NCBI RefSeq assembly: GCF_001921205.1
Contig: NZ_MSIE01000045.1
Coordinates: 1-64,000 of the forward strand
Reading direction: 5' to 3'
Length of the DNA stretch: 64,000 nt
Origin: Actinophytocola xanthii
Lineage (GTDB): Bacteria; Actinomycetota; Actinomycetes; Mycobacteriales; Pseudonocardiaceae
Shown: positions 164 through 15,835 of the stretch, one piece after another
Position numbering within the stretch: the stretch's first letter is position 1
Layout: every line of letters starts with the position of its first letter
The notes under the pieces: model-generated
Databases searched by the model: none
Told to the model about the DNA's origin: nothing
Seen by the model: the letters and a program-made list of their open reading frames with translations, nothing else
Position numbers and translations under genes: made by a program

Positions 164-679
164 GTGACAGACTCAGTCGAGGACTTCTACCTCTCGACGG
201 CCGAGCGGACCTTCGCAGCCGCACGCAGGGTTTCGGGCAATCTGCATGTCGCCCGGGACGCCACTCACGACGCGTATGTGGTGATGTTGGACCGGTGGGC
301 GGAGCGGATGAACTGTTCCCTTGCCGACAACCAGCGCTATGTGATCGGCATCGCGGTCAAGAAGGTCGCGGACTGGTACCGAGCGCACGGGCGTTTCGTG
401 GCACTGCCCGAGGATGACGACCCACCAGCGGTGGACCATTCCTATGACGACGTGCTCGATCAACTGTCCTTGTGTAAGGAAGTACGCCGGTTTCTGGAGG
501 ACCGACCCGTCGTGTCACGAACAGTCGGCATCCTTTACTTCCTCGAGGACTTCCCACAAGCGGAGATAGCGGAGATCATCGGCATCGATGCGTCTACCGT
601 CCGCACCCACGTGTACCGCCTGCGGAAACAGCTACGGCCAATGGTCGAACGCATCAGCAAGCTGGACGAAAGGAGGTGA
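164..679 (+). CDS. ECF-type RNA polymerase sigma factor
   Basis: 171-residue sigma-70 family protein of ECF size, predicted to redirect RNA polymerase to a small set of promoters. Region 2-like helices occupy about residues 5-75 (AERTFAAARRVSGN, then DATHDAYVVMLDRWA). Region 4 covers about 110-165, with the helix-turn-helix core QAEIAEIIGIDASTVRTHVY. No anti-sigma gene is recognisable next to it; the next gene, 5 bases downstream, encodes an FHA-like protein, so the pair probably forms one operon. Start is a GTG with no strong Shine-Dalgarno sequence. The pair converges on the SIR2/nSTAND1 operon. That it controls this operon is inference only. Confidence 0.8.
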   Translation: MTDSVEDFYLSTAERTFAAARRVSGNLHVARDATHDAYVVMLDRWAERMNCSLADNQRYVIGIAVKKVADWYRAHGRFVALPEDDDPPAVDHSYDDVLDQLSLCKEVRRFLEDRPVVSRTVGILYFLEDFPQAEIAEIIGIDASTVRTHVYRLRKQLRPMVERISKLDERR

Positions 680-684
680 CCGGG

Positions 685-1590
685 ATGGCCGACCACAACG
701 ACGACACGTACGAAGACGAAGCCGCCCGTGAACTGGTTCGTCGGGCGTACGCCGCTGCCCCGGAAACGGGAGACTTCGACGCGTTGGCTGGACTCCAACG
801 GCTTCGGTCCCGCCAGCCGGTCCCGGTGACATCGGGAAGCAACGCCGAGCCCGGCGTGGAGCCCCTCGGCGACGACGGCGGGGGTCTGCTGACCGTGATG
901 TCGGTACACGGCGGATTTCGCATGGCCCGGCGCGAAGGAGCGACCCTCCTGTTTGGCCGGCATGTGAGCAACGTGCAGGTCGCGTTCGGAGTGGACGATC
1001 GGCGTGTGAGCCGGCTACAGGGTGAGGTGGTTTGCCGCGATGGTCAGTGGTGGCTGCGGAACCGCGGCCGAAACCCGATCCGAGCCGACTCTCGGTTCCT
1101 GTTGCCCGGCGACGAGTGGGGTCCGTTGCCGATCGGGCCGGCACAGGTGTTCGTCACTGGTGAGGAGGGCCGGCAGCACATGCTCGCGCTACATGTTGCC
1201 AGCCAGGGGGACTATCGGCGGCACCTGGACCCGGATCACGCGACCTCCCCTCCGCGTGCGTGGCCGCTGGACCAGAAGGAACGACTGGTACTCGTCGTCG
1301 TGTTCCAGCGGTACCTCCGTGGTGACGTGCTCCCCAGGCCGCTGCCTCGGCGGCGGGCCGCCGAACAACTCATGGCACTGGACGCGACCGGCGAATGGAC
1401 GCCGAAGCAGGTCGAGCACGTGATGAGCGCTCTCCGGGAGCGACTGTCCAGCGCCGGTGTTTATGGCCTGACCTTGGAGGATGCTGAAACGCTGTCCCCA
1501 GACAGGTTGCAGCACAACCTGATCACCGAGCTGATGTCGTCCGCGACGCTAAGGCGCACTGACCTGTGGCTGCTCGAACGGACGGAATGA
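685..1590 (+). CDS. FHA-like domain protein paired with the sigma factor
   Basis: About 301 residues. An FHA-like domain spans residues about 66-165: the conserved GR is at 91-92 (LLFGRH) and the second conserved strand is VSRLQGEV around 108-115. The usual SRxH phosphothreonine-contact motif reads SRLQ, so phosphopeptide binding may be altered. The C-terminal third (about 195-300) is helical and resembles a winged-helix segment (KERLVLVVVFQ, then KQVEHVMSALRERL). The ATG at 685 is preferred over the in-frame GTG at 676 because the perfect AAGGAGG at 670-676 lies 8 bases before it. It is cotranscribed with the sigma gene. An adaptor or anti-sigma role is possible but not shown. Confidence 0.65.
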   Translation: MADHNDDTYEDEAARELVRRAYAAAPETGDFDALAGLQRLRSRQPVPVTSGSNAEPGVEPLGDDGGGLLTVMSVHGGFRMARREGATLLFGRHVSNVQVAFGVDDRRVSRLQGEVVCRDGQWWLRNRGRNPIRADSRFLLPGDEWGPLPIGPAQVFVTGEEGRQHMLALHVASQGDYRRHLDPDHATSPPRAWPLDQKERLVLVVVFQRYLRGDVLPRPLPRRRAAEQLMALDATGEWTPKQVEHVMSALRERLSSAGVYGLTLEDAETLSPDRLQHNLITELMSSATLRRTDLWLLERTE

Positions 1591-1668: not shown

Positions 1669-2430
1669 CTACGGCAGCCGTGCGTTCGACCAGAGTTCCT
1701 CGAACTGGTGCGCCCAGTAGCGAAACCACCGGTCGCTGTCGCGGCGGGTCAGCGTGATGTGCATTCTCGAACCGGTGGCCTCGTTACGATAGCCGTGGAA
1801 TTCGACGACGATGCGGCCGTCCCGGTGTGTCGGGTTGATGGCGACGATGCTGAAACCGGGGTTGTAGTCGACGAAGCGGTACGCGAAGTTGCCCGCGACC
1901 TGCCAGGACGACATCCGACGCAGCTGGCTCACGCTGGTGGACAGCGACGCCCGCAAGTCCTGGACGGGGTACTGGAGCGACTCGTCCAGCTGTCTCACGC
2001 CGAGAGCCACGGCCGCCTCGTTGTCCGGGTCGAGCACCGCCACCCGGACATCACCCGTGCCCTTGACCAGCACCAGCTCGCGGATTGCCGTGCAGTGTTG
2101 CGGGTTCAGTAGATTGATCGCAGACGGCGCGAAGATCCACAGCTGTGTCGCGTCGCGCAACAGGCTCGTGAACTGCACGTTGACGAACTCGTCGCGGTCC
2201 GCGAGCAGCCCGTCAACGGTAGGCGCCGGAGCAGCCGGCAGCGTGATCCGGAAGAGCAGCAGGGCCAACGCCGCGAACACCGCCGACCATTTCAGCGCCT
2301 CCGGTACCAGGTCGCCGATCACGCCGAGCGCGGCGAAGACCGCGGCAATCATGGTGACCACGTAGGCGTCGAGATTTCGCCCGGCCCGCACGTCGGACCA
2401 CATCTGGCGCACGGCACGCATGTCGCTCAC
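1669..2430 (-). CDS. Two-TM protein with a PLD-like cytoplasmic domain (putative conflict-system component)
   Basis: 253 residues. Two transmembrane helices lie near the N-terminus (about residues 18-38, AYVVTMIAAVFAALGVIG, and 44-62, KWSAVFAALALLLFRITL). A roughly 180-residue soluble domain follows with an alternating strand/helix pattern (LLRDATQLWIFAPSA, then VRVAVLDPDNEAAVALG) reminiscent of phospholipase-D-like domains of DUF5919 type. No HxKxxxxD motif is visible, so it is probably a sensor or scaffold rather than a nuclease. The GTG start overlaps the upstream stop as GTGA (2427-2430), so it is the last gene of a four-gene translationally coupled operon. The fold assignment is tentative. 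Confidence 0.6.
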   Translation of the reverse strand: MSDMRAVRQMWSDVRAGRNLDAYVVTMIAAVFAALGVIGDLVPEALKWSAVFAALALLLFRITLPAAPAPTVDGLLADRDEFVNVQFTSLLRDATQLWIFAPSAINLLNPQHCTAIRELVLVKGTGDVRVAVLDPDNEAAVALGVRQLDESLQYPVQDLRASLSTSVSQLRRMSSWQVAGNFAYRFVDYNPGFSIVAINPTHRDGRIVVEFHGYRNEATGSRMHITLTRRDSDRWFRYWAHQFEELWSNARLP

Positions 2431-3077
2431 GCTCCCCGCGATCGCCGACGACGGCTGCCCACCATGCCGGCGAGCCCGCCAAGTACCCACAGCGCGACCG
2501 TGAGCACCGTCCAACCGAGCACCGTGATATCGACGGCCACAGTGGCGTCGAGGCGCACCTGCGCCAGTACGGAGCCAAGCGCGAACCCGCCGCACCAGCC
2601 GAAGAACCCATTGCCGAGTCGCCTCAACTGCGCCACCGCGGTGACGAGCAACAGTGCGCTCATCGCGATCTCGCTCGGTCGGATACCGACGAGCATGCCG
2701 TAGTGGTACAGGTCCGCCAGATCCCTGTCGAGGACCCCGATCGCGAGCGCCGTCATGCTGGCCGCCACCCCGAAACCGAGGGACGCCGCAGGAAGGCCCT
2801 TCCCCACGTAGAAGGTCAGGACAGCGCGGCGGATGTCGAACGAGTTCTCCGCCGCCTGCGCGCGGCCCGCGGCGAGCATCTTCGGATCCTGAAGGTCGTC
2901 GATGGCTGCCAGGAGGAACAACGTCAGCACAACCTGCAGCGCAAGCGCGTAGCCGGCCAGCGTCGGGAGCCCGCCCCGCACGGTGGGCTGGGCGACCGGG
3001 GCGAGCAACAACAGCAGGGCGCCGATGACCGTGAACGCGATTGCCGGGGAGCTGAGCCTGTACAGCCGCATCGTCAT
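2427..3077 (-). CDS. Small polytopic membrane protein of the SIR2/nSTAND1 operon
   Basis: 216 residues (214 if the second ATG, at 3071, is used). I do not recognise the family. Four to five hydrophobic segments are visible: AIAFTVIGALLLLLAPVA, YALALQVVLTLFLLAAI, GFGVAASMTALAIGV, IAMSALLLVTAVAQL, and a C-terminal pair around ITVLGWTVLTVALWVLGG. The tail is basic (SRRRRSRGA). The ATG at 3077 overlaps the nSTAND1 stop (ATGA); the ATG at 3071 has better spacing (6 bases) to GGGAGG. Its stop overlaps the next start. It is probably the membrane platform, or possibly a pore-forming effector, of the system; this is inference from the operon. Confidence 0.65.
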   Translation of the reverse strand: MTMRLYRLSSPAIAFTVIGALLLLLAPVAQPTVRGGLPTLAGYALALQVVLTLFLLAAIDDLQDPKMLAAGRAQAAENSFDIRRAVLTFYVGKGLPAASLGFGVAASMTALAIGVLDRDLADLYHYGMLVGIRPSEIAMSALLLVTAVAQLRRLGNGFFGWCGGFALGSVLAQVRLDATVAVDITVLGWTVLTVALWVLGGLAGMVGSRRRRSRGA

Positions 3078-5509
3078 CCTCCCTGGCCCGGTGTCCGGAC
3101 GACCGACAGATCCAATGTGGATCGTCCCTCCGGGGCCTGCGTGTGGCTGAACCAGAACGTGCACCTGGCGTTCCCGGCAACGTAGGCGAGAAGTCGACCG
3201 TTGACGGTGGTCATCACCTCATCCGCTTGCCTGTCGCACAACAGGGACGCGGACAGCTCGGCGGGTAGTTCCGCGGTGAGCACCGCGTCCTCGGCGAGCC
3301 GGACGGCGACGGCGCTCGTCGCCACGTCGGCGTGCAGCCCGACGCGGTAGACGCCGAAGGTGCTCAGCGCGTCGCCGCTGAACGAGCGCACGGACAGTGT
3401 GCACGCGACGCCGCCCAGGTGGTCAGCTGCGCTGGCGAGCACGATGCTGTACTCACCCGGCTGCAGCCTCAGCGGAACGATGCTGGGTTCCGGGCCGAAC
3501 TGGCTTTCGACCGCGGCGTCCTCCTGGGTGTCGTTCCTGGACACGGCCACGTGCGCCGACGGGCTGCATCGGCCCTGGAGCCCGAGCGGCGTGGGGGAGT
3601 CCGGGACGGTGAAGGACACGACCTGGGCGCGGGAGAAACTGAGCGGGATCACCTCGTCCTGGTTCATCGGGCGCGGCCCGGGGAGCCGCTCGCGAAGTAC
3701 CGTCGCGGACGCCGGCGGATCCGTCGACGTCAGGTCCTCCAACTGGAGCACCGTGATCTGGTCGTCGCGCGTACCTTCCACGACGGCCAACTCATCGACG
3801 TAGACCAGCACGTTCCCGCCACTCACGCCCACCAGGTCGCCGCCGTGCACGGACACGAGATGGCGTTCGTGCTCGGCCAGCACCACGCCGAGCCGCCCGT
3901 CGGACACCTCCGACACGCGCTCCGCGCCCTCCGGCATCAGCGGGAGGTCGGAGACCGACAACTGGTAGCTGACCTCGTCATCGGGTCGCTCGGCGCGCAG
4001 CACCACCTCGTACCACCGGTCGGAGCGGGTTCGAGCACCGACGAGCGAGCCCACCGCCGTGCCCGGAACGAGCTCCACCGTGTCCTCCGCGAGAACGTCG
4101 GCCGATCCACCGCGGGGCACCACCCGTAGGGTCAGCGACTGCGCCCGGGTCTGCGGGAGTGCGGAAACCCAGATGTCGACGACGACGGCCTGCTCGCCTC
4201 CCTGGAACGACACCCGGGTCTCGGTCTCTCCCAACGCCCCCGACGTCTCGGCGAGCCTGCCCTCCTCGGTGATCAGCAGGAACGGAAATGCTCCGAGCAG
4301 ACCCAACAAGATCACGAACAACAGTGCCGAGACGCGGCGACGGATCTGAGCCCGCACTCGCAGCCACGCCTCGTTGGACGCGCGTACGCCGTCGGTCATG
4401 CTGTCGTGCGTCAGCTCGACGAGCCGGGAGCCGTGCCGCTGCTCGAGCTGTACCAGCTTCACCTCGGCCAGCCCTGTCAGCAGCGCGTTCGGCAGTCCGG
4501 CGGAGTCCTCCTCACCGACCTGGACGAACGCGCGCCGGCCGGACGACGTGATCAGCCGATGGCTCAGCCACCAGCGGACCGCCGCCTCGGCCCGATGGTT
4601 GTGGCCGACCGCCGCGGCGATCGCGTCGTCCACGAAACGCACCATCGAGTCGGTGAGGCTGACAGCGGAGCCGGAGGCGAGCACGGCCTGCACCGGGCCT
4701 TCCTGCTGCCGCACCTCCTCCCAGAGTTGGCGGCACACGATCTGTAGCTGGATCGTGTTGACGTAGCGGGCGCGTACGTGCGGCCGGACCGGGTCCACCA
4801 GCAACATGTCCATCAACGTCCGCAGGTCGCCGCTGGCAAGGGTGAGGCCCGTCGCCGTGAACGCCGCCCGGACCGCCTCCGTCGCCGCCTCCTCGGACAG
4901 CGGTTCCAGCTGGTAGCGGACGGTCAGACCGTCGTCCGGCAGGAGCCGCTCGTACGGCGCGAGCTCGGCCAGGTAGTCGCTGCGCAGGGCGATGATCGCG
5001 CGCAACCAGGTGTGCCGGTCCAGGGTCGAGGACAGGGTCGCGAAGAACTCCTCCCGCTCCACCCACAGCTCCGGGTCGGCGAATACCTCCTCGAACTGGT
5101 CGAGAACCAGGAGTACACGCCCCGCGGTGTCCGCCGGCCGGCACCGCTCGACCACGTCGTTGAGGTCACCCGGGTCGCCGGAGCCGCCGGAGATCGCGTC
5201 CCGTACGGCGCGGATGAAGGGGTTGGCCACGTTGCCGCCCCCGTCGGTGCGGGCTCCGGTACCAAGGTGCACAGCCGGCAGGACCCTGAAGTCGAACCGC
5301 TGCTCGAGGTGCGGCGCCACACCCGCCTGTACCAGCGACGACTTCCCGGTGCCGGAAGGCGCGTACAGGAGGGTTGTACTGGTCGACAGGACGAGCGAGG
5401 TGAGGTCCTCGATCTCGTTGGTCCGTCCGAAGAACCAGTCCCGCTCGTTCCGGCCGTAGGCCTGCGGCCCGGGAAACGGGTTGGTCTGGCACTGGCTGTC
5501 GACGGTCAC
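3074..5509 (-). CDS. nSTAND1-family NTPase with TM helix and beta-rich extracytoplasmic region
   Basis: 811 residues. A STAND-type P-loop NTPase spans about residues 10-390: Walker A PSGTGKSSLV at 51-60, Walker B VLLVLDQFEEVF at 132-143, and the arginine-sensor-like ALRSDYLAEL at about 174. The winged-helix end SRLVELTHDSMTDGVRASNE (361-380) is typical of nSTAND1. One transmembrane helix follows at about 393-413 (ALLFVILLGLLGAFPFLLI). Roughly 400 beta-rich residues after it have no motif I recognise. STAND NTPases are signal-sensing switches that oligomerise and activate an effector. The GTG start overlaps the SIR2 stop (GTGA), which points to stoichiometric co-production with the NADase. The external domain may be the sensing surface (inference). 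Confidence 0.85.
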   Translation of the reverse strand: MTVDSQCQTNPFPGPQAYGRNERDWFFGRTNEIEDLTSLVLSTSTTLLYAPSGTGKSSLVQAGVAPHLEQRFDFRVLPAVHLGTGARTDGGGNVANPFIRAVRDAISGGSGDPGDLNDVVERCRPADTAGRVLLVLDQFEEVFADPELWVEREEFFATLSSTLDRHTWLRAIIALRSDYLAELAPYERLLPDDGLTVRYQLEPLSEEAATEAVRAAFTATGLTLASGDLRTLMDMLLVDPVRPHVRARYVNTIQLQIVCRQLWEEVRQQEGPVQAVLASGSAVSLTDSMVRFVDDAIAAAVGHNHRAEAAVRWWLSHRLITSSGRRAFVQVGEEDSAGLPNALLTGLAEVKLVQLEQRHGSRLVELTHDSMTDGVRASNEAWLRVRAQIRRRVSALLFVILLGLLGAFPFLLITEEGRLAETSGALGETETRVSFQGGEQAVVVDIWVSALPQTRAQSLTLRVVPRGGSADVLAEDTVELVPGTAVGSLVGARTRSDRWYEVVLRAERPDDEVSYQLSVSDLPLMPEGAERVSEVSDGRLGVVLAEHERHLVSVHGGDLVGVSGGNVLVYVDELAVVEGTRDDQITVLQLEDLTSTDPPASATVLRERLPGPRPMNQDEVIPLSFSRAQVVSFTVPDSPTPLGLQGRCSPSAHVAVSRNDTQEDAAVESQFGPEPSIVPLRLQPGEYSIVLASAADHLGGVACTLSVRSFSGDALSTFGVYRVGLHADVATSAVAVRLAEDAVLTAELPAELSASLLCDRQADEVMTTVNGRLLAYVAGNARCTFWFSHTQAPEGRSTLDLSVVRTPGQGG

Positions 5510-6471
5510 GACGCCACCCGGGGTTTGGGCGACCGCTCGACCCGGCGCAGCAACTCGGCCAGGAAGGGACCGGCGTCGCCCCAGTGAACGTCAACGGACG
5601 AGGACGTCTTGAGGTAGACCTCGAGAAACTTCTCGGCTCGCCTGCGCCGGTCGGGCGGCATCCTGTTGTTGGCCAGCTGGATGCTGATGCTGTTGCGGGC
5701 GTTGTGCGGCTGGATCTTCTGCTGCTTCATGAGGTGGCGCATCAGAACCCGGAAGTTCCAGTCCTCGAGGCTGTAGCCGATGAACAGCAGGTTCGTGTTG
5801 GCCAACGCTCGCCGAACGTAGAGCGGGACCATCGGGTTCTTCTGGTTGTTGCGCTGGGCGAGGCTCACCGTGAAGTCCACGTAGTCGTCCTCGGTGAGCA
5901 GCAGGGAGCTGGGCGTCCGAAGGTGGCCGTGCAGGTGGAAGATCCGGGGGGTCGCGGCGGACTGTTCCCGCCGCGCGGGCCGGCCTGGCTCCGACTCGAA
6001 CTGGTCGTGCCAGCGACATATCTCCACCAGGGGCTGGACACCGGTGATGGACGCGACCGCCCGCTCCAGGTAGTCGTCATAGTTCGTCGTGACGTAGATG
6101 GGCAGGCCGAGCCTGGCCAGGCGCAGGTGGTTCGCCGGGAGCCCGCCGCCGAGTTTCCGCTCGGCAACCCTCTGCTTTCGCTCGAGGTAAGCGCACACCC
6201 GCCGTTTGACGAAGGCCGGTTCGTGCGAGCTCGCGATGTACTGGGCGACCCGGGCGAGGTTGGTGACGTCGTCGAGCGGATACTCGTACCTTCTGGCCAG
6301 CACTTTCGCCAGAAGACCACCGGTCGGGAGGTAGGGGACGGCCACGCCGGCGCCAAGAAAGGGCGTACATTCCCCGTGCACCACCGAATCCACCAGGGTT
6401 TCCCACGTCTCTGGTTTCAGCGACTGCCCGTCCGCGTCGCCCTCGGCCGCGCCGGCGTTCAGAGAACTCAT
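5506..6471 (-). CDS. SIR2-like NAD-hydrolysing effector
   Basis: 321 residues, a SIR2_2-type Rossmann protein. Diagnostic motifs are in order: FLGAGVAVPY (38-47) for dinucleotide binding, VTTNYDDYLERA (127-138) with the conserved Asn, FHLHGH (178-183) with the catalytic His, and FIGYSLEDWNF (230-240). In antiphage systems such as ThsA, DSR and Avs5, this subfamily destroys NAD+ on activation; protein deacetylation is unlikely because no zinc-binding cysteine set is visible. It is first in the operon. The ATG at 6471 lies 11 bases after GGGGAGG, a loose but acceptable spacing. In Avs5, SIR2 and STAND modules are fused; here they are separate genes joined by a 4-base overlap. Confidence 0.85.
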   Translation of the reverse strand: MSSLNAGAAEGDADGQSLKPETWETLVDSVVHGECTPFLGAGVAVPYLPTGGLLAKVLARRYEYPLDDVTNLARVAQYIASSHEPAFVKRRVCAYLERKQRVAERKLGGGLPANHLRLARLGLPIYVTTNYDDYLERAVASITGVQPLVEICRWHDQFESEPGRPARREQSAATPRIFHLHGHLRTPSSLLLTEDDYVDFTVSLAQRNNQKNPMVPLYVRRALANTNLLFIGYSLEDWNFRVLMRHLMKQQKIQPHNARNSISIQLANNRMPPDRRRRAEKFLEVYLKTSSSVDVHWGDAGPFLAELLRRVERSPKPRVAS

Positions 6472-7864: not shown

Positions 7865-7941
7865 TGGTGCCCCCGGTGCGATTCGAACGCACACTGGACG
7901 GGTTTTGAATCCGTTGCCTCTGCCGGTTGGGCTACGGGGGC
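7865..7941 (-). tRNA. tRNA with CAA anticodon (tRNA-Leu by anticodon), class-I shape
   Basis: Read on the minus strand: a perfect 7-bp acceptor stem (GCCCCCG/CGGGGGC), T8, D arm, anticodon stem-loop with loop TTCAAAA (anticodon CAA), T arm GTGCG-TTCGAAT-CGCAC, discriminator A, and an encoded CCA at 7867-7865. The variable region is only 5 nt (CCAGT) and the body is 74 nt without CCA. Leucine tRNAs normally carry a long variable arm. The last pair of the anticodon stem is an A-C mismatch. The gene sits between accessory DNA (at its 3' side) and the core gene pdtaR. Confidence 0.85.
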
Positions 7942-8133: not shown

Positions 8134-8742
8134 GTGACCGAGCAGGCTGCCGAGGCCCAGTCCGGCCCGGCCGTACAGCGTAGTGTCCTTGTCGCCGAAG
8201 ACGAGGCCTTGATCCGGCTCGACCTCGTCGAGATGCTCAAGGAAGAGGGCTATCACGTCGCGGGCGAGGCTGCCGACGGCGAGCAGGCTGTCGCCATGGC
8301 CACGGAGTTGCGGCCCGACCTCGTCATTCTCGACGTCAAGATGCCCAAGATGGACGGTATCGACGCCGCCGCGGCCATCGCGGGGGAGCGGATCGCCCCC
8401 GTCGTCATCCTCACGGCGTTCAGCCAGCGGGACCTGGTCGAGCGAGCGCGGGACGCGGGGGCCATGGCCTACCTCGTCAAACCGTTCGCCAAGCAGGATC
8501 TCGTGCCGGCCATCGAGCTCGCCGTCTCCCGCTTCTCCGAGCTGCACGCCCTCGAGACCGAGGTCGCCACGCTCACCGAGCGCATGGAGACCCGCAAGCT
8601 CATCGAACGGGCCAAGGGCCTCCTGATGACCAAGCAGGGCCTCACCGAGCCCGAGGCCTTCCGCTGGATCCAGCGCACGGCCATGGACCGGCGCGCCACC
8701 ATGAAGGCCGTCGCCCAGGCCGTGGTGGAGAACATCAACTAG
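8134..8742 (+). CDS. pdtaR: PdtaR-type response regulator with ANTAR output domain
   Basis: 202 residues. The receiver domain spans about 17-135, with phospho-acceptor Asp in LVILDVKMPKMDG and the conserved Lys in LVKPFAKQDL. A C-terminal ANTAR RNA-binding domain follows (RKLIERAKGLLMTKQGL, then EAFRWIQRTAMDRRATMK). By analogy with Mycobacterium tuberculosis Rv1626, it binds ANTAR hairpins to prevent transcription termination when phosphorylated by the kinase PdtaS, which is not in this window. The GTG start follows AGGAGG (8122-8127) by 6 bases. The location near polA/rpsA/coaE is conserved in actinobacteria. Its end overlaps the convergent next gene by 8 bases. Confidence 0.92.
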   Translation: MTEQAAEAQSGPAVQRSVLVAEDEALIRLDLVEMLKEEGYHVAGEAADGEQAVAMATELRPDLVILDVKMPKMDGIDAAAAIAGERIAPVVILTAFSQRDLVERARDAGAMAYLVKPFAKQDLVPAIELAVSRFSELHALETEVATLTERMETRKLIERAKGLLMTKQGLTEPEAFRWIQRTAMDRRATMKAVAQAVVENIN

Positions 8743-10690
8743 TCACCGTGAACGTCAGCAGCGCGGACTGGGGACGCTCGTCACCCAGCTGATACTGCCG
8801 TACCTCCACGGTGTGGTCCTCCACGCTCAGGCCCCCGACGGCCAGTGACAGCTTGTAGGTACCGCCCACCCCGGGACCATCCGTCGCGGTAGGGATGCCG
8901 GCGATCAGGGTGCCGTCCAGCCGCACCTCGATCCCGGTCACCCCGGCCACGGTCCCGGTGTCCCACTGCGCCTCGGTCGCGTCCGAGCGCACGGTCAGCA
9001 CGAGCTGCCCCCGCCTCGGCACCGTCCGCGTGTCCAGCGGCTCACCGGCGGCGTTGCCCAGCTCGGGCACCACCTCCGGCGCGGCGTCCGGCACACGACG
9101 CTCCCGGTCCTCGGCCGCCCTCTCCGGCGCCCGCCAGGCCGGTGTGGGCGTGATCTCCAGGTACGTCTCGAGCACGGCCGCTGTCGGGTTCGCCCCGGCC
9201 GCGCGCAGGACGAACGGCGTGACCGTCGTCGAGCCGCGCGGGCCGAGCAACGCCGCCGGCACCTCGGCGACGACGGTCAGCGACGCTCCCTGGTGCCGCG
9301 CCGGTCTCGCCACGGCCGGTCTGGCCGGCACCCGCACCTCGCCGAACTGCACCGCGACCGCCCGCGGGTCCAGCTCACGGTTCACCATCAGCGTCGCGAC
9401 CAGCCGTGCCCGGGTGGCCGAGCGCAGCGGCGTCCTCGCCATGCCCACGCCCGGCGCCGGGTCCCCCGGGGCCAGGACGCGCTGGGTCGCCAGGATCACC
9501 GGGGCCTCCACCACCGCCGGCCGCGGGCTCGACGGCCCGCTGAACCCGGCCGAGGCCAGGTGCACCCGCGCCTGCCGCCCGTCCGGACCGCGGAACCCCA
9601 GCAGCACCCACGCCTCCCGCCACTGCGGCACCACCGCGCGACCGGCCACCGCCAGGCCGTCCTGGTACACCCGCACCCCCGACGTCGTCAGCACGACCTC
9701 GAACAGATGCGTCACCCCTGGCCCGCGCCGCGGCGCGGGGTGGACCTCCGCCGACTGCGCCGAGGACCCTGGCACGTCCGGGGCGACGCCGACGAGCGTG
9801 CCCGCGTCCGAGACCGACACCCGCACCGAGCCGCCCGGCAGCGCAGGGTCCCGTTCCTCGGCCCGAGCGGCCCGCAGCGTCCCCACCCCGACCTGGTCCG
9901 CGCGGCCGGGAACCAGGTCGACGGTCAGCTCACCGCCCGGCCCGGCCGCGTCGGTGCGCACCACCACCCGCCCGAGCTCGCCCCGCCCTCCGCTCAGCCG
10001 CAGCGGCGTTCGCGCCCGCAGCACGGCCGTGTCCGCTCCGCAGTCCAGGTCGATCGGCAGCCCGCGACGGTCGGCCTGGCCGGCCCGCACCCGAACGCAG
10101 CCGCGGTAGCCGGACACGTGCCACCGCGACCCCGGGTAGTCCGCCGACACCGCGGACGTCCCGTTCGCCCCCGGCTCGGTGAAGTCCTCGTAGAGACCGG
10201 TCAGGCCGTTGCGCCAGGACCGGTCACCCCGTCCCGGTACGCCCGTCTCCTCCGTGGGCGGTGAGCGCCGGCCGTAGGCGTCCACGGTCCGCACCCGGAT
10301 CCGGTAGCGGTGGCCGTCGTCCAGGCCGTCGAGCTGCACGTCCGGGGCCGCGACCAGGCGGACCCGCTCCCGCCCGACGCCGTCCACCCGCGCCCAGCGC
10401 ACCTCGTAGCCGGACGCCCCGGCCAGTGGCCGGCCGGCCGGGACCGCGTCCGCCCAGTACACGCGCAGCTGGCCGGGTTCGGGGCTGACCAGGAGCCGGC
10501 GCGGCTGCTCGGGCCGGCGACCGGGGGCGGGGAGGACCACGCTGTCCGCGGCGTACCTCTCCACTACATGGCGTGACGACTCCTCGCCCTCGTCACGCGT
10601 TCCGGGGTCGGTCTCGCGTAGGACGACCACCGCGGACGTCACCAGGACCACGCCTGCGAGCCAGGCGAGCAGCCGCCTCCGTTTCGCCAC
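8735..10690 (-). CDS. Secreted or membrane-anchored fibronectin type III domain protein
   Basis: 651 residues. It has a basic N-terminus and a hydrophobic segment (RRRLLAWLAGVVLVTSAVVV), consistent with a signal anchor. About residues 60-150 form a fibronectin-III domain (RRLLVSPEPGQLRVYWADAV, then YRIRVRTVDAYGRRSPPTEE). The remaining 500 residues are beta-rich, with jelly-roll-like stretches (HLFEVVLTTSGVRVYQDGL) and a C-terminal beta-sandwich (QLVLTVRSDATEAQWDTG). No catalytic motif is recognised. The likely role is in extracellular binding or cell-envelope structure. It is transcribed toward pdtaR with overlapping stop codons. Confidence 0.75.
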   Translation of the reverse strand: MAKRRRLLAWLAGVVLVTSAVVVLRETDPGTRDEGEESSRHVVERYAADSVVLPAPGRRPEQPRRLLVSPEPGQLRVYWADAVPAGRPLAGASGYEVRWARVDGVGRERVRLVAAPDVQLDGLDDGHRYRIRVRTVDAYGRRSPPTEETGVPGRGDRSWRNGLTGLYEDFTEPGANGTSAVSADYPGSRWHVSGYRGCVRVRAGQADRRGLPIDLDCGADTAVLRARTPLRLSGGRGELGRVVVRTDAAGPGGELTVDLVPGRADQVGVGTLRAARAEERDPALPGGSVRVSVSDAGTLVGVAPDVPGSSAQSAEVHPAPRRGPGVTHLFEVVLTTSGVRVYQDGLAVAGRAVVPQWREAWVLLGFRGPDGRQARVHLASAGFSGPSSPRPAVVEAPVILATQRVLAPGDPAPGVGMARTPLRSATRARLVATLMVNRELDPRAVAVQFGEVRVPARPAVARPARHQGASLTVVAEVPAALLGPRGSTTVTPFVLRAAGANPTAAVLETYLEITPTPAWRAPERAAEDRERRVPDAAPEVVPELGNAAGEPLDTRTVPRRGQLVLTVRSDATEAQWDTGTVAGVTGIEVRLDGTLIAGIPTATDGPGVGGTYKLSLAVGGLSVEDHTVEVRQYQLGDERPQSALLTFTVTS

Positions 10691-10963
10691 GCATGCAGGG
10701 TATGAGCAGGCAGGAACCTCGGCGCTACCCGTTGTGAAGTTGGAACAGTGTTAAAGGGACATGACCGATTGGTGGGAGTTCGTCCGGTCAGCGGACGGTC
10801 GTGGCGGTTTCGTTGCAGTCTGGTCACGAGCGGTCCAGGCGCGTGACGAGCATGGCCAGGGGTTACTACGTTCCGCCCCAGCCCTCTGTCATCCCCGAGG
10901 GCGGGGTTCGGCATGCTATGCGCCAAAGCTCGGACGAACAGTGTGTGAATGAAGGGACGTCAC

Positions 10964-12202
10964 GTGCGAAACCAGACGGTGAAGGCCGCGGCCCTGGTAG
11001 CAGCTGGAGTACTGCTACTGGCGGCCTGCAGCACGAACAAGGAGGAGACGCCGGCTGGCGAGGGCGGCAACAACAGCGCCGCCTGTGACACCAGCAAGGG
11101 CACGCTCGTGCTCGGCGTCATCGCTCCGCTGAGCGGCGAGCTGTCCGCGCTGGGCAAGGGCATCGAGAACTCGGCCCGGCTCGCCGTCGACGAGGCCAAC
11201 GAGAAGTGCACCGTTCCCGGCTACAAGGTCGCCGTCCAGGCCGAGGACGACCAGAAGAACCCGCAGCTGGGTGCCCAGGCCGCGACCAAGCTCTCCGCGA
11301 CCCCGAACGTGGTCGGCGTGGTGTCCACGCTGAACTCGTCGGTCTCCCAGACCGTGCAGCCGATCCTGGACCAGGCGGGCATCGTGCAGATCTCGCCGGC
11401 CAACACGGCCGACACGCTCACCAAGGGCGAGGACTTCCTCAACAGCCCGAAGCGGGCCTACAAGACCTACTTCCGTACCTGCACCGTCGACTCGCTGCAG
11501 GGCCCGTACGCGGCCGACTACCTCATCGAGAAGTCGGGCAAGAAGAGCATCGCGATCGTCACCGACGGTCTGACCTACGGCGAGGGCCTGGCCGACTCCT
11601 TCGCCAAGCGCGCGCAGGAGAAGGGCGCCACGATCGTCACCCGCCAGAAGGTCGGTGACAAGGACACCGACTTCTCCGGTGTGATCGCCACGGTCAAGCA
11701 GTTCAACCCGGACGCTGTCTACTTCGGAGGCCAGTACCCGCAGGCGGGTCCGTTCTCCAAGCAGCTCGCCAGTGCGGGCCTGAACGTCCCGGTGATGGGT
11801 GGCGACGGCATCTTCGACGACACCTTCATGGAGCTCGGCGGCAAGGACGGCGACCTCGCCACCTCCGTCGGCGCGCCGACCGAGGACCTGGACAGCGCCA
11901 AGGCGTTCGTCGAGGCCTACGAGGGCAAGGACTACGCCGAGGGCTTCAGCGCCTACGGTGCGTTCTCCTACGACGCCGCCAACGCGATCCTGTCCGCCCT
12001 GGGCGAGACCATCGGTGACGGCGAGTGGTCCGACGACATGCGGCCGGACCTGGTCGAGGCCGTCCAGAACTACGAGGGTGACGGTGCCACCGGCAAGGTC
12101 GCGTTCGACGAGTTCGGCGACAGCACGAACAAGGTTCTCACCGTGTACCAGGTGGGTGGCGGCGAGTGGAAGGCCGTCGAGACCGGAGAGTTCGCCGGCT
12201 GA
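10964..12202 (+). CDS. livK: Branched-chain amino-acid ABC transporter substrate-binding lipoprotein
   Basis: About 412 residues. A type II signal peptide ends in the lipobox LLAAC (VLLLAACSTN), so the mature protein is lipid-anchored outside the membrane. A Peripla_BP_6 (LIVBP) fold follows: LVLGVIAPLSGELSALGKGI, the first-lobe stretch VVGVVSTLNSSVSQTV, and YAADYLIEKSGKKSIAIV. The GTG at 10964 is preferred to the ATG at 10949 because GAAGGGA precedes it by about 8 bases while the ATG has no ribosome binding site. It is the first gene of livKHMGF and is separated from livH by a strong hairpin. Substrate is probably leucine/isoleucine/valine or a related compound. Confidence 0.92.
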   Translation: MRNQTVKAAALVAAGVLLLAACSTNKEETPAGEGGNNSAACDTSKGTLVLGVIAPLSGELSALGKGIENSARLAVDEANEKCTVPGYKVAVQAEDDQKNPQLGAQAATKLSATPNVVGVVSTLNSSVSQTVQPILDQAGIVQISPANTADTLTKGEDFLNSPKRAYKTYFRTCTVDSLQGPYAADYLIEKSGKKSIAIVTDGLTYGEGLADSFAKRAQEKGATIVTRQKVGDKDTDFSGVIATVKQFNPDAVYFGGQYPQAGPFSKQLASAGLNVPVMGGDGIFDDTFMELGGKDGDLATSVGAPTEDLDSAKAFVEAYEGKDYAEGFSAYGAFSYDAANAILSALGETIGDGEWSDDMRPDLVEAVQNYEGDGATGKVAFDEFGDSTNKVLTVYQVGGGEWKAVETGEFAG

Positions 12203-12244
12203 CAGGTAGATAACACTTCTTTCCACTGTGAACACGAATACGAC

Positions 12245-12273
12245 GGCGGGGGTGGGCCCAGCCCACCCCCGCC
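12245..12273 (+). terminator. Hairpin between livK and livH (attenuator or processing stem)
   Basis: A perfect 13-bp stem (GGCGGGGGTGGGC at 12245-12257 with its complement at 12261-12273) and a 3-nt loop lie just after livK. No T-run follows. Such stems commonly stabilise the binding-protein transcript and reduce readthrough into the permease genes. Confidence 0.75.
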
Positions 12274-12289
12274 GCCTGTGGAGGCGAAT

Positions 12290-13207
12290 GTGACGACCCT
12301 GTTACAGCAGATCGCGAACGGGCTCGTGCAGGGCGCGACGATCGGACTGATCGCGCTCGGTTACACGATGGTGTACGGCATCATCCAGCTGATCAACTTC
12401 GCTCATGGCGAGGTGTTCATGGTCGGCACGTTCGGTGCTCTCGCGGTCTACCGCTGGGTGCTCCCGGAGAGCGTTCAGGACCAGTGGTACGTCGCCCTGC
12501 CCCTGATGCTGCTGGGCGGCATCGTGGTGGCCGTGGTGGTCGCCGTGTTGATGGAGCGGTTCGCCTACAGACCGCTGCGCAACGCACCCAGACTCGCGCC
12601 ACTGATCACCGCGCTCGGGGTGTCGGTGGCGCTGCAGGAAGTTGTCCGCCTCTGGTTCCCGGACGCGGAGGCTGCCCAGTCGTTCCCGCGGGTCTTCGTC
12701 GATGCGCAGGTCGACCTCGGACCGGTCCAGATCTCCGCGACCGGGCTGCTGCTGATCGTGGTCTCGGTCGTGCTGTCGGTGCTGCTGCAGACCTACGTCA
12801 ACCGCTCCAGGATGGGTCGCGCCATGCGCGCCACCTCCCAGGACCGGGACACCGCGCGCTTGATGGGCGTCAACCCCGACCGCGTCATCGTGCTCACCTT
12901 CGTCCTCGGTGCGGCGCTCGCCGGCGTCGCCGGCGTGCTCTACGGCGCCCACCTCAACTCCGTGGACACCAACGACGGTTTCCAGACCGGGATCTTCGCC
13001 TTCACCGCGGCCGTGCTCGGCGGCATCGGCAGCCTCCGCGGCGCGGTGATCGGCGCGTTCATCATCGGGCTGATCAAGACCCTGGGCGGCCAGTACCTGC
13101 CCGGGGGTACCCAGTACGACTACGTGTGGATCTTCGTGGTGCTGATCCTGGTCCTGGTGTTCCGGCCGCAGGGCCTGTTCGGTGAGGCGGAGAGGGTGCG
13201 GGCATGA
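12290..13207 (+). CDS. livH: Branched-chain amino-acid ABC transporter permease LivH
   Basis: About 305 residues. It is an eight-helix BPD_transp_2 permease. The N-terminal signature GLIALGYTMVYGIIQLINFA and the cytoplasmic coupling loop RAMRATSQDRDTARLMGVN (EAA-like) are present. The C-terminal helix ends with LVLVFRPQGLFG, shared with LivM. GTG 12290 is chosen over the in-frame GTG at 12278 because GGAGG (12280-12284) sits 5 bases before it. It forms the membrane channel with LivM, energised by LivG and LivF. Its stop overlaps the livM start (ATGA). Confidence 0.93.
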   Translation: MTTLLQQIANGLVQGATIGLIALGYTMVYGIIQLINFAHGEVFMVGTFGALAVYRWVLPESVQDQWYVALPLMLLGGIVVAVVVAVLMERFAYRPLRNAPRLAPLITALGVSVALQEVVRLWFPDAEAAQSFPRVFVDAQVDLGPVQISATGLLLIVVSVVLSVLLQTYVNRSRMGRAMRATSQDRDTARLMGVNPDRVIVLTFVLGAALAGVAGVLYGAHLNSVDTNDGFQTGIFAFTAAVLGGIGSLRGAVIGAFIIGLIKTLGGQYLPGGTQYDYVWIFVVLILVLVFRPQGLFGEAERVRA

Positions 13208-14973
13208 CGAGGTTGACCGGATTCCTTCCGCCCGCGCTCGCGCGTCCGTTCAACGCGGTGGGGGCGGCCCTGCTCGTCATCGCGGCGCTGCTGCCGTGGG
13301 CGACGTTCCTGCTCAACGACGGGGCCTTCCCGGACAAGGCGACGCTCCAGTTCTTCGACGCGCCGCTCGCGGTCACGGGCTTCCGCTGGCAGCTGCTGCT
13401 GATCGGGGTCGCCGCGCTGGTGCTGGCGTTCGTGCGGATTCCCGGCCAGGGTCGCGTGCTCCGGGCGCTCGGCTGGGGCGGCCTTGCCATCGGCGTCGTG
13501 GGTGCGATCTTCATCGCCAGCGAGGGCGGCGGCCTGGGTGCCATCACCGCGGCCGACGGCACGACGGCGTTCGGCAGCATCGTCGCCGTGCTCGGCGGCG
13601 TCGCGCTGGTCCTCGGCTCGACCGCCCTGGGCATCCCGGACATCCCGGACTGGCCGACGCGGTTCTTCGGCCTGAGCGGCTGGCCGCTGCGGCTGGCCGC
13701 GTGGGTCGTGCTGGTCGTCGCGTTCGGCGGCGTGCTCTATCTGGTGTCGCTGACGCTCACCGCCGGCGGCATCGGCGGTGCGGCCGACCCCTACGCCGGT
13801 CCGATCTTCCTCGCGTTCCTCGGGTTCGCCGGCGCACTGCTCGGCGCCCTGCACGGCGCGGGGGTCACCCGCTGGGTGTCCCGCCTGTCCGAGGAGCACC
13901 GGGGGTTCAGCATCCTGGTGCTGGTGGCCTGCGCCTTCGCCCTGCCGTTCACCGAGGCCGGCAGCCAGTACTGGATGCAGGTCGCGGCCACCATCGGCGT
14001 GTACGCGGCGACGGCGATCGGGTTGAACATCGTGGTGGGCCTGGCCGGCCTGCTCGACCTCGGCTACGTCGCCTTCCTGGGCATCGGCGCGTTCGTGGCG
14101 GCCAACCTGTCCGGGGCGGGCGCCTCGGCGCTCGGCTGGGACCTGCCCTTCCCGGTGGCCGCGCTGATCGCGGCGGCCGTCGCCGGCGTCTTCGGCGCGA
14201 TCGTCGGCTCGCCGACGCTGCGGGTGCGGGGTGACTACCTGGCCATCGTGACCCTCGCCTTCGGCGAGATCTTCTACCGCTCCGCCCAGAACGACATCGG
14301 CGAGCTGACCGGCGGCGCGAGCGCCATCCCCGGCATTCCGCCGATCTCGATGTTCGGTACCGCGTTCAACGAGCCGCTCGAGCTGTTCGGCGCCGAGCTG
14401 CCAAGCGGTGTCCTGTACTACTTCCTGATCGTGCTGGTGGTCGCGGCCATCATGGCGGTGTTCGCGAACCTCAAGAACAGCAGGATGGGCCGGGCCTGGA
14501 TCGCGATCCGGGAGGACGAGGACGCCGCCAGGGCCATGGGCATCCGCACCGGCAAGGCGAAGATCCTCGCGTTCCTGGTCGGCGCCACGCTGGCCGGGCT
14601 CGCCGGCGCGATCTTCGTGCACAAGCTGGGCACCGCCTCCTACGAGAGCTTCCAGTTCCTGGAGTCGGTGACGCTGCTGGCCGCGGTGATCCTCGGCGGC
14701 ATGGGCACGATCCCGGGCGCGGTGCTCGGCGCCTCGCTGCTGTTCGTGCTCCCGGAGAAGCTGCGGGAGTTCGACGAGTACCGGCTGCTGGTGTTCGGTC
14801 TCGCGCTGATCCTCATCATGCGTTTCCGCCCGCAGGGGCTGGTGCCCGACCGGGTCCGGCGAGCCGAGCTCGCCGGGGAGACCGCGATGGGCAAGTCCAT
14901 CGAGGAGGCCGAGGAACAGGCAGTGCTCGAACACGAAGAGGCGCTCTCCGCCCAGAAGGAGGACCGGCGATGA
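13204..14973 (+). CDS. livM: Branched-chain amino-acid ABC transporter permease LivM with N-terminal membrane extension
   Basis: 589 residues, much longer than a typical LivM (about 330-430). The canonical permease part starts around residue 255 (GLNIVVGLAGLLDLGYVAFL) and includes the EAA-like loop WIAIREDEDAARAMGI and the end MRFRPQGLVPDR. The first 230 residues add about five to six hydrophobic helices (for example WQLLLIGVAALVLAFV), separated from the core by a short soluble stretch. The C-terminus has a charged tail (EEAEEQAVLEHEEAL). ATGA overlaps join it to livH and livG. Confidence 0.92.
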   Translation: MTRLTGFLPPALARPFNAVGAALLVIAALLPWATFLLNDGAFPDKATLQFFDAPLAVTGFRWQLLLIGVAALVLAFVRIPGQGRVLRALGWGGLAIGVVGAIFIASEGGGLGAITAADGTTAFGSIVAVLGGVALVLGSTALGIPDIPDWPTRFFGLSGWPLRLAAWVVLVVAFGGVLYLVSLTLTAGGIGGAADPYAGPIFLAFLGFAGALLGALHGAGVTRWVSRLSEEHRGFSILVLVACAFALPFTEAGSQYWMQVAATIGVYAATAIGLNIVVGLAGLLDLGYVAFLGIGAFVAANLSGAGASALGWDLPFPVAALIAAAVAGVFGAIVGSPTLRVRGDYLAIVTLAFGEIFYRSAQNDIGELTGGASAIPGIPPISMFGTAFNEPLELFGAELPSGVLYYFLIVLVVAAIMAVFANLKNSRMGRAWIAIREDEDAARAMGIRTGKAKILAFLVGATLAGLAGAIFVHKLGTASYESFQFLESVTLLAAVILGGMGTIPGAVLGASLLFVLPEKLREFDEYRLLVFGLALILIMRFRPQGLVPDRVRRAELAGETAMGKSIEEAEEQAVLEHEEALSAQKEDRR

Positions 14974-15835
14974 ACGCGGCACGGCACAGTGCCGAGACGG
15001 TGCTCGAGGCGAGCGGCGTCACGATGGTCTTCGGCGGTCTGACCGCGCTCAACGACGTGTCGCTGTCCCTCCCCGAGGGGCGCATCGTCGGCCTGATCGG
15101 ACCCAACGGCGCGGGCAAGACGACGTTCTTCAACTGCCTGACCGGCCTGTACACCCCGACCAGGGGCGCTGTCCGGTTGCGCGGCAAGGAACTGCCGCAC
15201 GACCCGGCGAAGGTGACCACGGCCGGTATCGCCAGGACGTTCCAGAACATCCGGCTGTTCCCGAACATGTCGGTGCTGGAGAACGTGCTGGTGGGCCGGC
15301 ACATCCGGATGCGCCAGGGCCCGCTGGCCTCGCTCTTCCACGGACCCGGGTTCCGGCGCGACGAGCGCCGGGCCCGGGAGAAGTCGCTGGAGCTGCTCGA
15401 GTTCGTCGGGCTGCGCGGTGTGGAGGACGAGGTCGCGCGCAACCTGCCCTACGGCGACCAGCGCCGGCTGGAGATCGCGCGGGCGCTCGCGACCGAGCCG
15501 GACGTGCTGCTGCTCGACGAGCCGACCGCGGGGATGAACCCGCAGGAGACCGAGGACGCCCGGCAGCTGATCTTCCGGATCCGGGAGACCGGCATCTCGG
15601 TCGTGGTGATCGAGCACGACACGAAGTTCATCTTCAGCCTGTGCGACACCGTCTCGGTGCTGGTGCAGGGCGAGGTGCTGGTCGAGGGGTCGCCCGACGT
15701 CGTCCGCGAGGACCCGCGGGTGATCGAGGCCTACCTCGGCAAGCCACGCGAGGAGGTCGAGGCGGAGGTCGCCGAGGCCGCGGCGCACCACGGGGCCGAC
15801 CACCAGGGCCCGGCAGCGGGCAGGAGGGATGACGC

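Follow-up and report, generated by a model that had tools for sequence, protein, structure and literature searches.

The 64,000 nucleotides analyzed here (the window) are positions 1 to 64,000 of contig NZ_MSIE01000045.1 of Actinophytocola xanthii and contain a minus-strand operon of four genes, running from 6471 to 1669, in which each junction is a 4-base overlap. The overlaps, GTGA at 5506 to 5509, ATGA at 3074 to 3077, and GTGA at 2427 to 2430 on the minus strand, all read back at the positions claimed in an earlier, sequence-only reading of this DNA, and the last gene ends with the stop codon TAG (1669 to 1671). The reading frame of the first gene is open upstream to 6840, and the ATG at 6471 is its likeliest start. 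The operon encodes, in the order of transcription, a SIR2 protein, an nSTAND1 NTPase, a polytopic membrane protein, and a protein with two transmembrane (TM) segments, referred to below as the 2-TM protein:

5506..6471, minus strand: P0001, SIR2 (SIR2_2) protein, 321 amino acids (aa), predicted NADase effector (Pfam, PDB matches, and invariant N130/H181)
3074..5509, minus strand: P0002, nSTAND1 NTPase, 811 aa, with a TM helix at 395-413 and 398 C-terminal residues predicted to lie outside (Pfam, hydropathy, and charge bias)
2427..3077, minus strand: polytopic membrane protein, 216 aa, four to six hydropathy segments (Pfam scan, hydropathy, and one weak relative)
1669..2430, minus strand: P0004, 2-TM protein, 253 aa, with a predicted cytosolic PLD-like (TrmB/Nuc-type) domain lacking HKD (hydropathy, fold comparison, and SIR2 neighborhoods)

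SIR2_2 is the sole Pfam match of P0001 (E value of 1.1e-25, over the cut-off). The catalytic core is intact, as had been claimed, with the motifs TTNYD (N130), HLHGH (H181), and GYSLEDW. N130 and H181 are invariant across nine aligned SIR2 proteins, the window included, and align with two sites that are Ala in chain 9v12 and Asn and His in a near-identical sister chain. The PDB matches of P0001 include ThsA, KomC, and other SIR2 proteins, and the entry 9xvc, named KomC(H146N), presumably points to the same histidine as H181. By sequence, P0001 combines the marks of a SIR2_2 defense NADase, namely, the SIR2_2 domain and the catalytic Asn and His. The PADLOC models matched were ThsA, LmuA, PDC-S25, Dsr1, and Dsr2 only, with ThsA being the best (57.3 bits) over the SIR2 part only (residues 25 to 249).

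The best Pfam family of P0002 is nSTAND1 (PF20703; 3.9e-35, 122.7 bits, over the cut-off). Its Walker A (SGTGKSS) and Walker B (LVLDQFEE) motifs are intact, and an alignment of 13 nSTAND1 proteins, which includes the window and leaves out those of loci L054 and L071, shows the key residues of the NTPase motifs to be invariant. A single TM helix (395 to 413) is followed by 398 residues, and because the N-side charge is +4 versus −3, this tail probably lies outside; both the intact motifs and the helix with about 400 outside residues agree with the sequence-only reading. The C termini of the 13 proteins vary, and the NTPase motifs are fixed. TPR-like tails, read by eye from the sequence, are found in L052, L061, L063, L064, and L067, and WD40 tails are found in L070, with a TM helix, and in L094, without one by the threshold used. 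L055 and L056 have multi-TM C termini, L053 has a short TM tail, the L134 protein stops shortly past its NTPase part, L135 from Ensifer has a TM helix and weak beta-propeller signals, and the window tail consists of the TM helix and an ectodomain with no assigned family. The proposed membrane sensing has some support from three of the 13 proteins (the window, L070, and L135), in which one TM helix is followed by 398 to 802 residues, and the gene of the Ensifer protein is followed by one for a periplasmic binding protein. Membrane attachment of the STAND protein is not a general trait, however, since seven of the 13 lack a TM helix by the threshold applied. The TM-anchored form would be a bacterial STAND protein whose sensor may face the cell exterior. 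The Ensifer locus (L135, 5902 to 11937) lies on the conjugative megaplasmid pB of Ensifer adhaerens and encodes SIR2, a TM-anchored nSTAND1 protein with about 800 residues past the TM helix, and, in an overlapping gene, the periplasmic binding protein; it is possible that this is an immune switch reading a periplasmic ligand.

Hydropathy places two TM segments before a cytosolic domain in P0004, which matched no Pfam family over the cut-off. Residues 67 to 253 fit PLD folds (TrmB/Nuc-type), and a PLD-type fold is predicted for the domain. The "PLD-like" label given earlier is thus right for the fold, but the HxK of the HKD motif is absent from P0004, and HxK is present somewhere in only 1 of 14 members of the 2-TM family. 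A catalytic phospholipase or nuclease role is disfavored by the missing HxK and the lack of a PLDc_2 profile signal. The family profile against PLDc_2 gave an E value of 0.4 (best shuffled E value, 0.057 in 20 shuffles), and DUF5919 against PLDc_2 gave 0.006 (probability, 6%; best shuffle, 0.14), in a rough test for which the PLDc_2 set comprised 19 rows, one of them (L128) apparently in the wrong frame. P0004 itself has no match to DUF5919 (PF19319). A distant relative (G012:C29) matches it with 35.5 bits versus a cut-off of 23.5, and hhalign of the cytosolic part of the family against DUF5919 gave an E value of 7e-4 (probability, 27%; best of 10 shuffles, 0.086). No Macro match was found in the 14 family members at E values up to 1, and a Macro fold does not appear in the fold matches listed for P0004, although unlisted folds may also fit. 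An apparent SIR2-2-TM fusion in L079 was rejected, since the 2-TM piece is out of the SIR2 frame, which indicates a decayed copy.

The polytopic protein has four hydropathy segments under strict settings and six under relaxed settings, and no Pfam family was matched over the cut-off. Among 150 genomes of the family, it matches itself and one weak relative (G118; E value of 4.6e-4), and it had no match in the gene neighborhoods examined. A conserved four-gene system is rejected because the exact set was found only in the window; of the two extra membrane partners that had been named, the 2-TM protein recurs, and the polytopic protein was found only here.

The core of SIR2, nSTAND1, and 2-TM genes does recur outside the window. 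A pattern scan with the 2-TM alignment over the genome_contigs collection (84,980 species) matched 89 stretches, and 21 loci were confirmed. In 13 of these loci, a SIR2_2 gene exceeds the curated cut-off, and in L073, one falls just short of it (23.7 versus 24.5 bits); in all 14, the SIR2 gene was seen inside the locus itself, and a SIR2_2-like gene in L075 (19.6 bits) was left out. By chance, 0.064 such loci would be expected, with 16.7 kb taken per locus. The genome-wide counts comprise 35 SIR2_2 rows in 23 genomes (34 over the cut-off and 1 below), 21 of which carry loci; the SIR2_2 of G582 and the second of G583 were uncounted, as contig identity was not established. The neighbors of the 2-TM gene differ in design, being SIR2 with nSTAND1 in L061, L063, L064, L067, L070, and L071, SIR2-NACHT in L060, SIR2 with a sub-cut-off SLOG signal in L069, SIR2 with DUF4020 in L072, and others. 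Genes in these neighborhoods come from a home-made gene caller, so their starts are approximate; for the SIR2 and nSTAND1 genes mentioned, blastp, tblastn, or Pfam provided confirmation.

Several of these neighborhoods have further features. In L072 to L076 (Actinoplanes group and Micromonospora), the 2-TM gene is followed by a gene for a protein of 571 to 668 aa that reads as SIR2-like. Its SIR2_2 score exceeds the cut-off in L074 alone (44.6 bits) and stays under it in L072, L073, and L075, and L076 gave no SIR2_2 match. A second SIR2 gene is divergent from this gene in L072 and L074, and a gene with a sub-cut-off methyltransferase signal occupies this place in L073. In L069 (8120 to 11883), the row consists of the 2-TM gene, SIR2 with a weak STALD/SLOG signal, a DprA-family gene, and a phosphoribosyltransferase-like gene, the last read by eye.

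Split SIR2-nSTAND1 pairs were found at 15 loci, namely, the window, L052, L053 (with a CHAT-fused SIR2), L054, L055, L056, L061, L063, L064, L067, L070, L071, L094, L134, and L135. The 2-TM gene is present in nine of them, six of which were reached through the 2-TM gene. The cleanest case is L094, where the SIR2 and 2-TM searches of 396 phylum genomes both land on one 10.85-kb contig; these searches matched 11 and 3 of the 396 genomes, respectively, and P0001 and P0004 each matched 7 of 150 family genomes, with the own genome included throughout. A gene in L094 (7117 to 7656) overlaps the end of the 2-TM gene by 4 bases and has a weak Usp signal (17.4 bits versus a cut-off of 24). No nSTAND1 was found in the short flanks of L081 to L090, ten SIR2 loci that belong to nine phylum genomes. 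A distance test on nine loci, in which frames from three were trimmed by hand, speaks for co-inheritance, not contact.

Next to the operon, one side of a variable region in the genus is fixed:

7865..7941, minus strand: tRNA-Leu(CAA), bordering the region that varies within the genus
8134..8742, plus strand: response-regulator-like gene, fixed side of the tRNA-Leu hotspot (92.9 to 96.5% identity in five sister genomes; name read from the sequence)

The two are kept in the window and five sister genomes, with other genes between them in G005. Beyond the tRNA, G003 has caspase-DEAD/DEAH helicase and SEFIR/TIR genes, G004 has AbiEii and a phage integrase, different genes are present in G001 and G002, and G005 has only the contig edge. 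The window begins at the contig start, so its left flank is not traceable. In a sister genome, the same hotspot (L097, 11031 to 14599) encodes a single protein that joins a caspase to a DEAD/DEAH helicase, and a SEFIR/TIR gene overlaps its gene. Phage carriage was considered and rejected: none of the 45 stretches that matched the pattern in viral_contigs encodes a relative. In the plasmid collection, the sole 2-TM relative is in an 11.85-Mb Nonomuraea record. On the other side of the operon and convergent with it, window positions 164 to 1590 (plus strand) contain a sigma-70/extracytoplasmic function-type sigma factor gene followed by a gene that begins with an ATG at 685; the product of this gene resembles an FHA protein when read by eye but has no Pfam match. 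P0006 matched no Pfam family.

We read the operon as a STAND immune module in two parts, an effector and a switch made as separate proteins, plus a membrane partner that acts with SIR2 (probability of about 0.6). The gene content, the intact residues, the predicted fold, and the linkage of SIR2 with the 2-TM and nSTAND1 genes underlie this reading, in which we infer the activation, NAD cleavage, membrane action, and phage trigger as follows. The nSTAND1 protein would sense an insult via its lineage-specific C terminus (here outside the membrane), bind ATP, oligomerize, and switch on SIR2 in trans. SIR2 would then cleave NAD+, and the cell would stop growing or die before phage release, with the 2-TM protein acting at the membrane on or with the SIR2 output. 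As the split pair parts the effector from the switch, activation in trans is testable. The linkage of the 2-TM gene to SIR2 enzymes of different designs points to an unrecognized part of bacterial suicide-type immunity.

Some observations weigh against this reading. Six of the 21 2-TM loci gave no SIR2 match within the locus (L059, L065, L066, L068, L077, and L078), and L075 has one only below the cut-off. A Macro-domain gene (22.7 bits versus a cut-off of 22) lies beside the 2-TM gene in L068, and a Nudix gene with an NrtR winged helix does so in L078; L059, L065, L066, and L077 (a 5-kb contig) have neither a SIR2, a Macro, nor a Nudix gene. L065 and L078 are the same places as L048 and L049. 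When pairs were reached without the 2-TM gene, it was adjacent in only three of nine (the window, L052, and L094). In Nonomuraea, the SIR2-nSTAND1 pair and the 2-TM gene are both present and unlinked. Five distant 2-TM relatives, four at 26 to 27% identity plus G456, have no SIR2 match to P0001 in the 19.5 kb (L050 and L051), 3.7 kb (L036 and L038), or 12.4-kb contig (G456) viewed. The distance correlation may come partly from organism relatedness, Foldseek itself found no PDB match for the P0004 domain at E values of 0.001 or less, and the reading does not account for the polytopic protein.

For the 2-TM protein, the favored role, by analogy, is that of a membrane executioner that responds to a nucleotide and would resemble TM-macro ThsA in function; this role is ranked above a membrane anchor for SIR2. 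More broadly, the 2-TM protein with its dead PLD domain could tentatively be a general SIR2 receptor and executioner, in which a nucleotide from NAD+ cleavage would bind the TrmB-like domain, the TM hairpins would cluster, and the membrane would be breached. SIR2 immune enzymes are thought to work by draining NAD+. If the proposal is true, SIR2 systems would do more than this and, like TIR systems, would reach a membrane effector through a second messenger. The SIR2 enzymes would have a partner in this membrane protein, whose fold is of a ligand-binding type and which accompanies several SIR2 designs and, once, a Macro domain; among the matches listed, the retrieved portions of the open-licence literature yielded no published assay of the 2-TM partner and named neither a split SIR2-nSTAND1 module nor a 2-TM PLD-like partner.

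Alternatively, the 2-TM protein could be an anchor or scaffold that holds SIR2, and via SIR2 the nSTAND1 protein, at the membrane near the sensor, with no nucleotide binding and no pore. We consider this possible but doubtful. SIR2 proteins of various architectures have the 2-TM protein as a companion, so it may contact the SIR2 domain, and Avs5 forms foci at the poles or along the membrane during infection, according to excerpts of PMC12931631. However, the 2-TM gene also occurs without a SIR2 neighbor, beside the Macro-domain or NrtR-type Nudix gene, and the polar residues of its cytosolic domain that are invariant in 14 sequences (E210, H212, R222, and H224) exceed the needs of a tether. 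It is unlikely that the whole module, instead of acting against phages, serves mycelial actinobacteria as a regulated cell death or envelope stress switch driven by an extracellular cue. The tails predicted to lie outside in the window, L070, and L135 and the periplasmic binding protein encoded by the next gene in Ensifer would suit such a switch, and excerpts of PMC8195603 and PMC7159879 link the conflict systems of multicellular bacteria to apoptosis-like processes, but the patchy distribution, the tRNA hotspot, and the conjugative megaplasmid suit defense better, and the tails of several soluble relatives, WD40 or (as judged by eye from the sequence) TPR-like, are of the kinds that known phage sensors have. 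Defense genes cluster, and six 2-TM loci have no SIR2 match, but that the 2-TM gene merely shares defense islands with SIR2 genes, with no joint function, is very improbable, since SIR2_2 is rare (6 matches in 31 genomes, own included, and the 35 rows in 23 genomes given above), the counted SIR2_2 domains are only 0.3 to 2.8 kb from the 2-TM gene, this gene, as called by the home-made gene caller, overlaps the next by 4 bases in L073, L075, and L076, and the adjacent SIR2_2 is the only one in 8 of the 23 genomes.

Returning to the immune module, its resemblance to known systems is partial. P0002, the polytopic protein, and P0004 matched no PADLOC model at E values up to 1, in line with the view that the operon has no named type. 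As described in excerpts of PMC12931631, Avs5 is a fused Sir2-nSTAND3 protein that hydrolyzes NAD+ on phage infection. The operon resembles it in pairing a SIR2_2 effector with a controlling STAND NTPase whose C-terminal sensor is variable. However, Avs5 combines its parts, including nSTAND3 and repeats of the TPR/Sel1/PPR type, in a single polypeptide, whereas the operon encodes two proteins, nSTAND1, a TM-anchored ectodomain, and membrane partners. nSTAND3 (PF20720) is not among the five Pfam matches of P0002 at E values up to 1. Avs5 membership is rejected because SIR2 and STAND are separate genes with a GTGA overlap, the NTPase is nSTAND1, and there is no Avs5 PADLOC match; the split noted from the sequence thus holds. 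Thoeris membership is also rejected, as a scan of six proteins from the operon and its flanks gave no TIR match and P0001 matched no SLOG family in Pfam at E values up to 1.

The closest likenesses of the 2-TM protein are to membrane effectors. In the excerpts of PMC11204291, nucleotide-induced oligomerization in the membrane is proposed for TM-macro ThsA, which likewise has a TM segment and a small cytosolic domain and is encoded beside an NAD-cleaving enzyme; TM-macro Thoeris, however, has a TIR enzyme, a macro domain, and no STAND described there, whereas the operon has SIR2, a predicted PLD fold, and nSTAND1. SLATT effectors, predicted in excerpts of PMC7159879 to be nucleotide-responsive pore formers, are 2-TM proteins that are also encoded beside nucleotide- or NAD-processing domains, but the P0004 family has a PLD-fold domain after the TM hairpin, and a weak SLATT_3 match was found in 1 of its 14 members (best E value, 0.075). 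The compact four-gene locus L053 (G051, 8854 to 15057) encodes an alpha/beta hydrolase-like protein, CHAT-SIR2, nSTAND1 with a C-terminal TM, and gasdermin, a pore former. It shares with the operon the SIR2-nSTAND1 order (30.8% identity for SIR2 and 29.9% for nSTAND1) and a membrane-active third product, and it differs in the CHAT fusion, the upstream hydrolase-like gene, and the gasdermin that replaces the 2-TM protein. The gasdermin gene sits where G047 and G201 have the 2-TM gene, and this swap of the third gene, seen at one locus, is suggestive of a 2-TM protein that acts as a membrane executioner.
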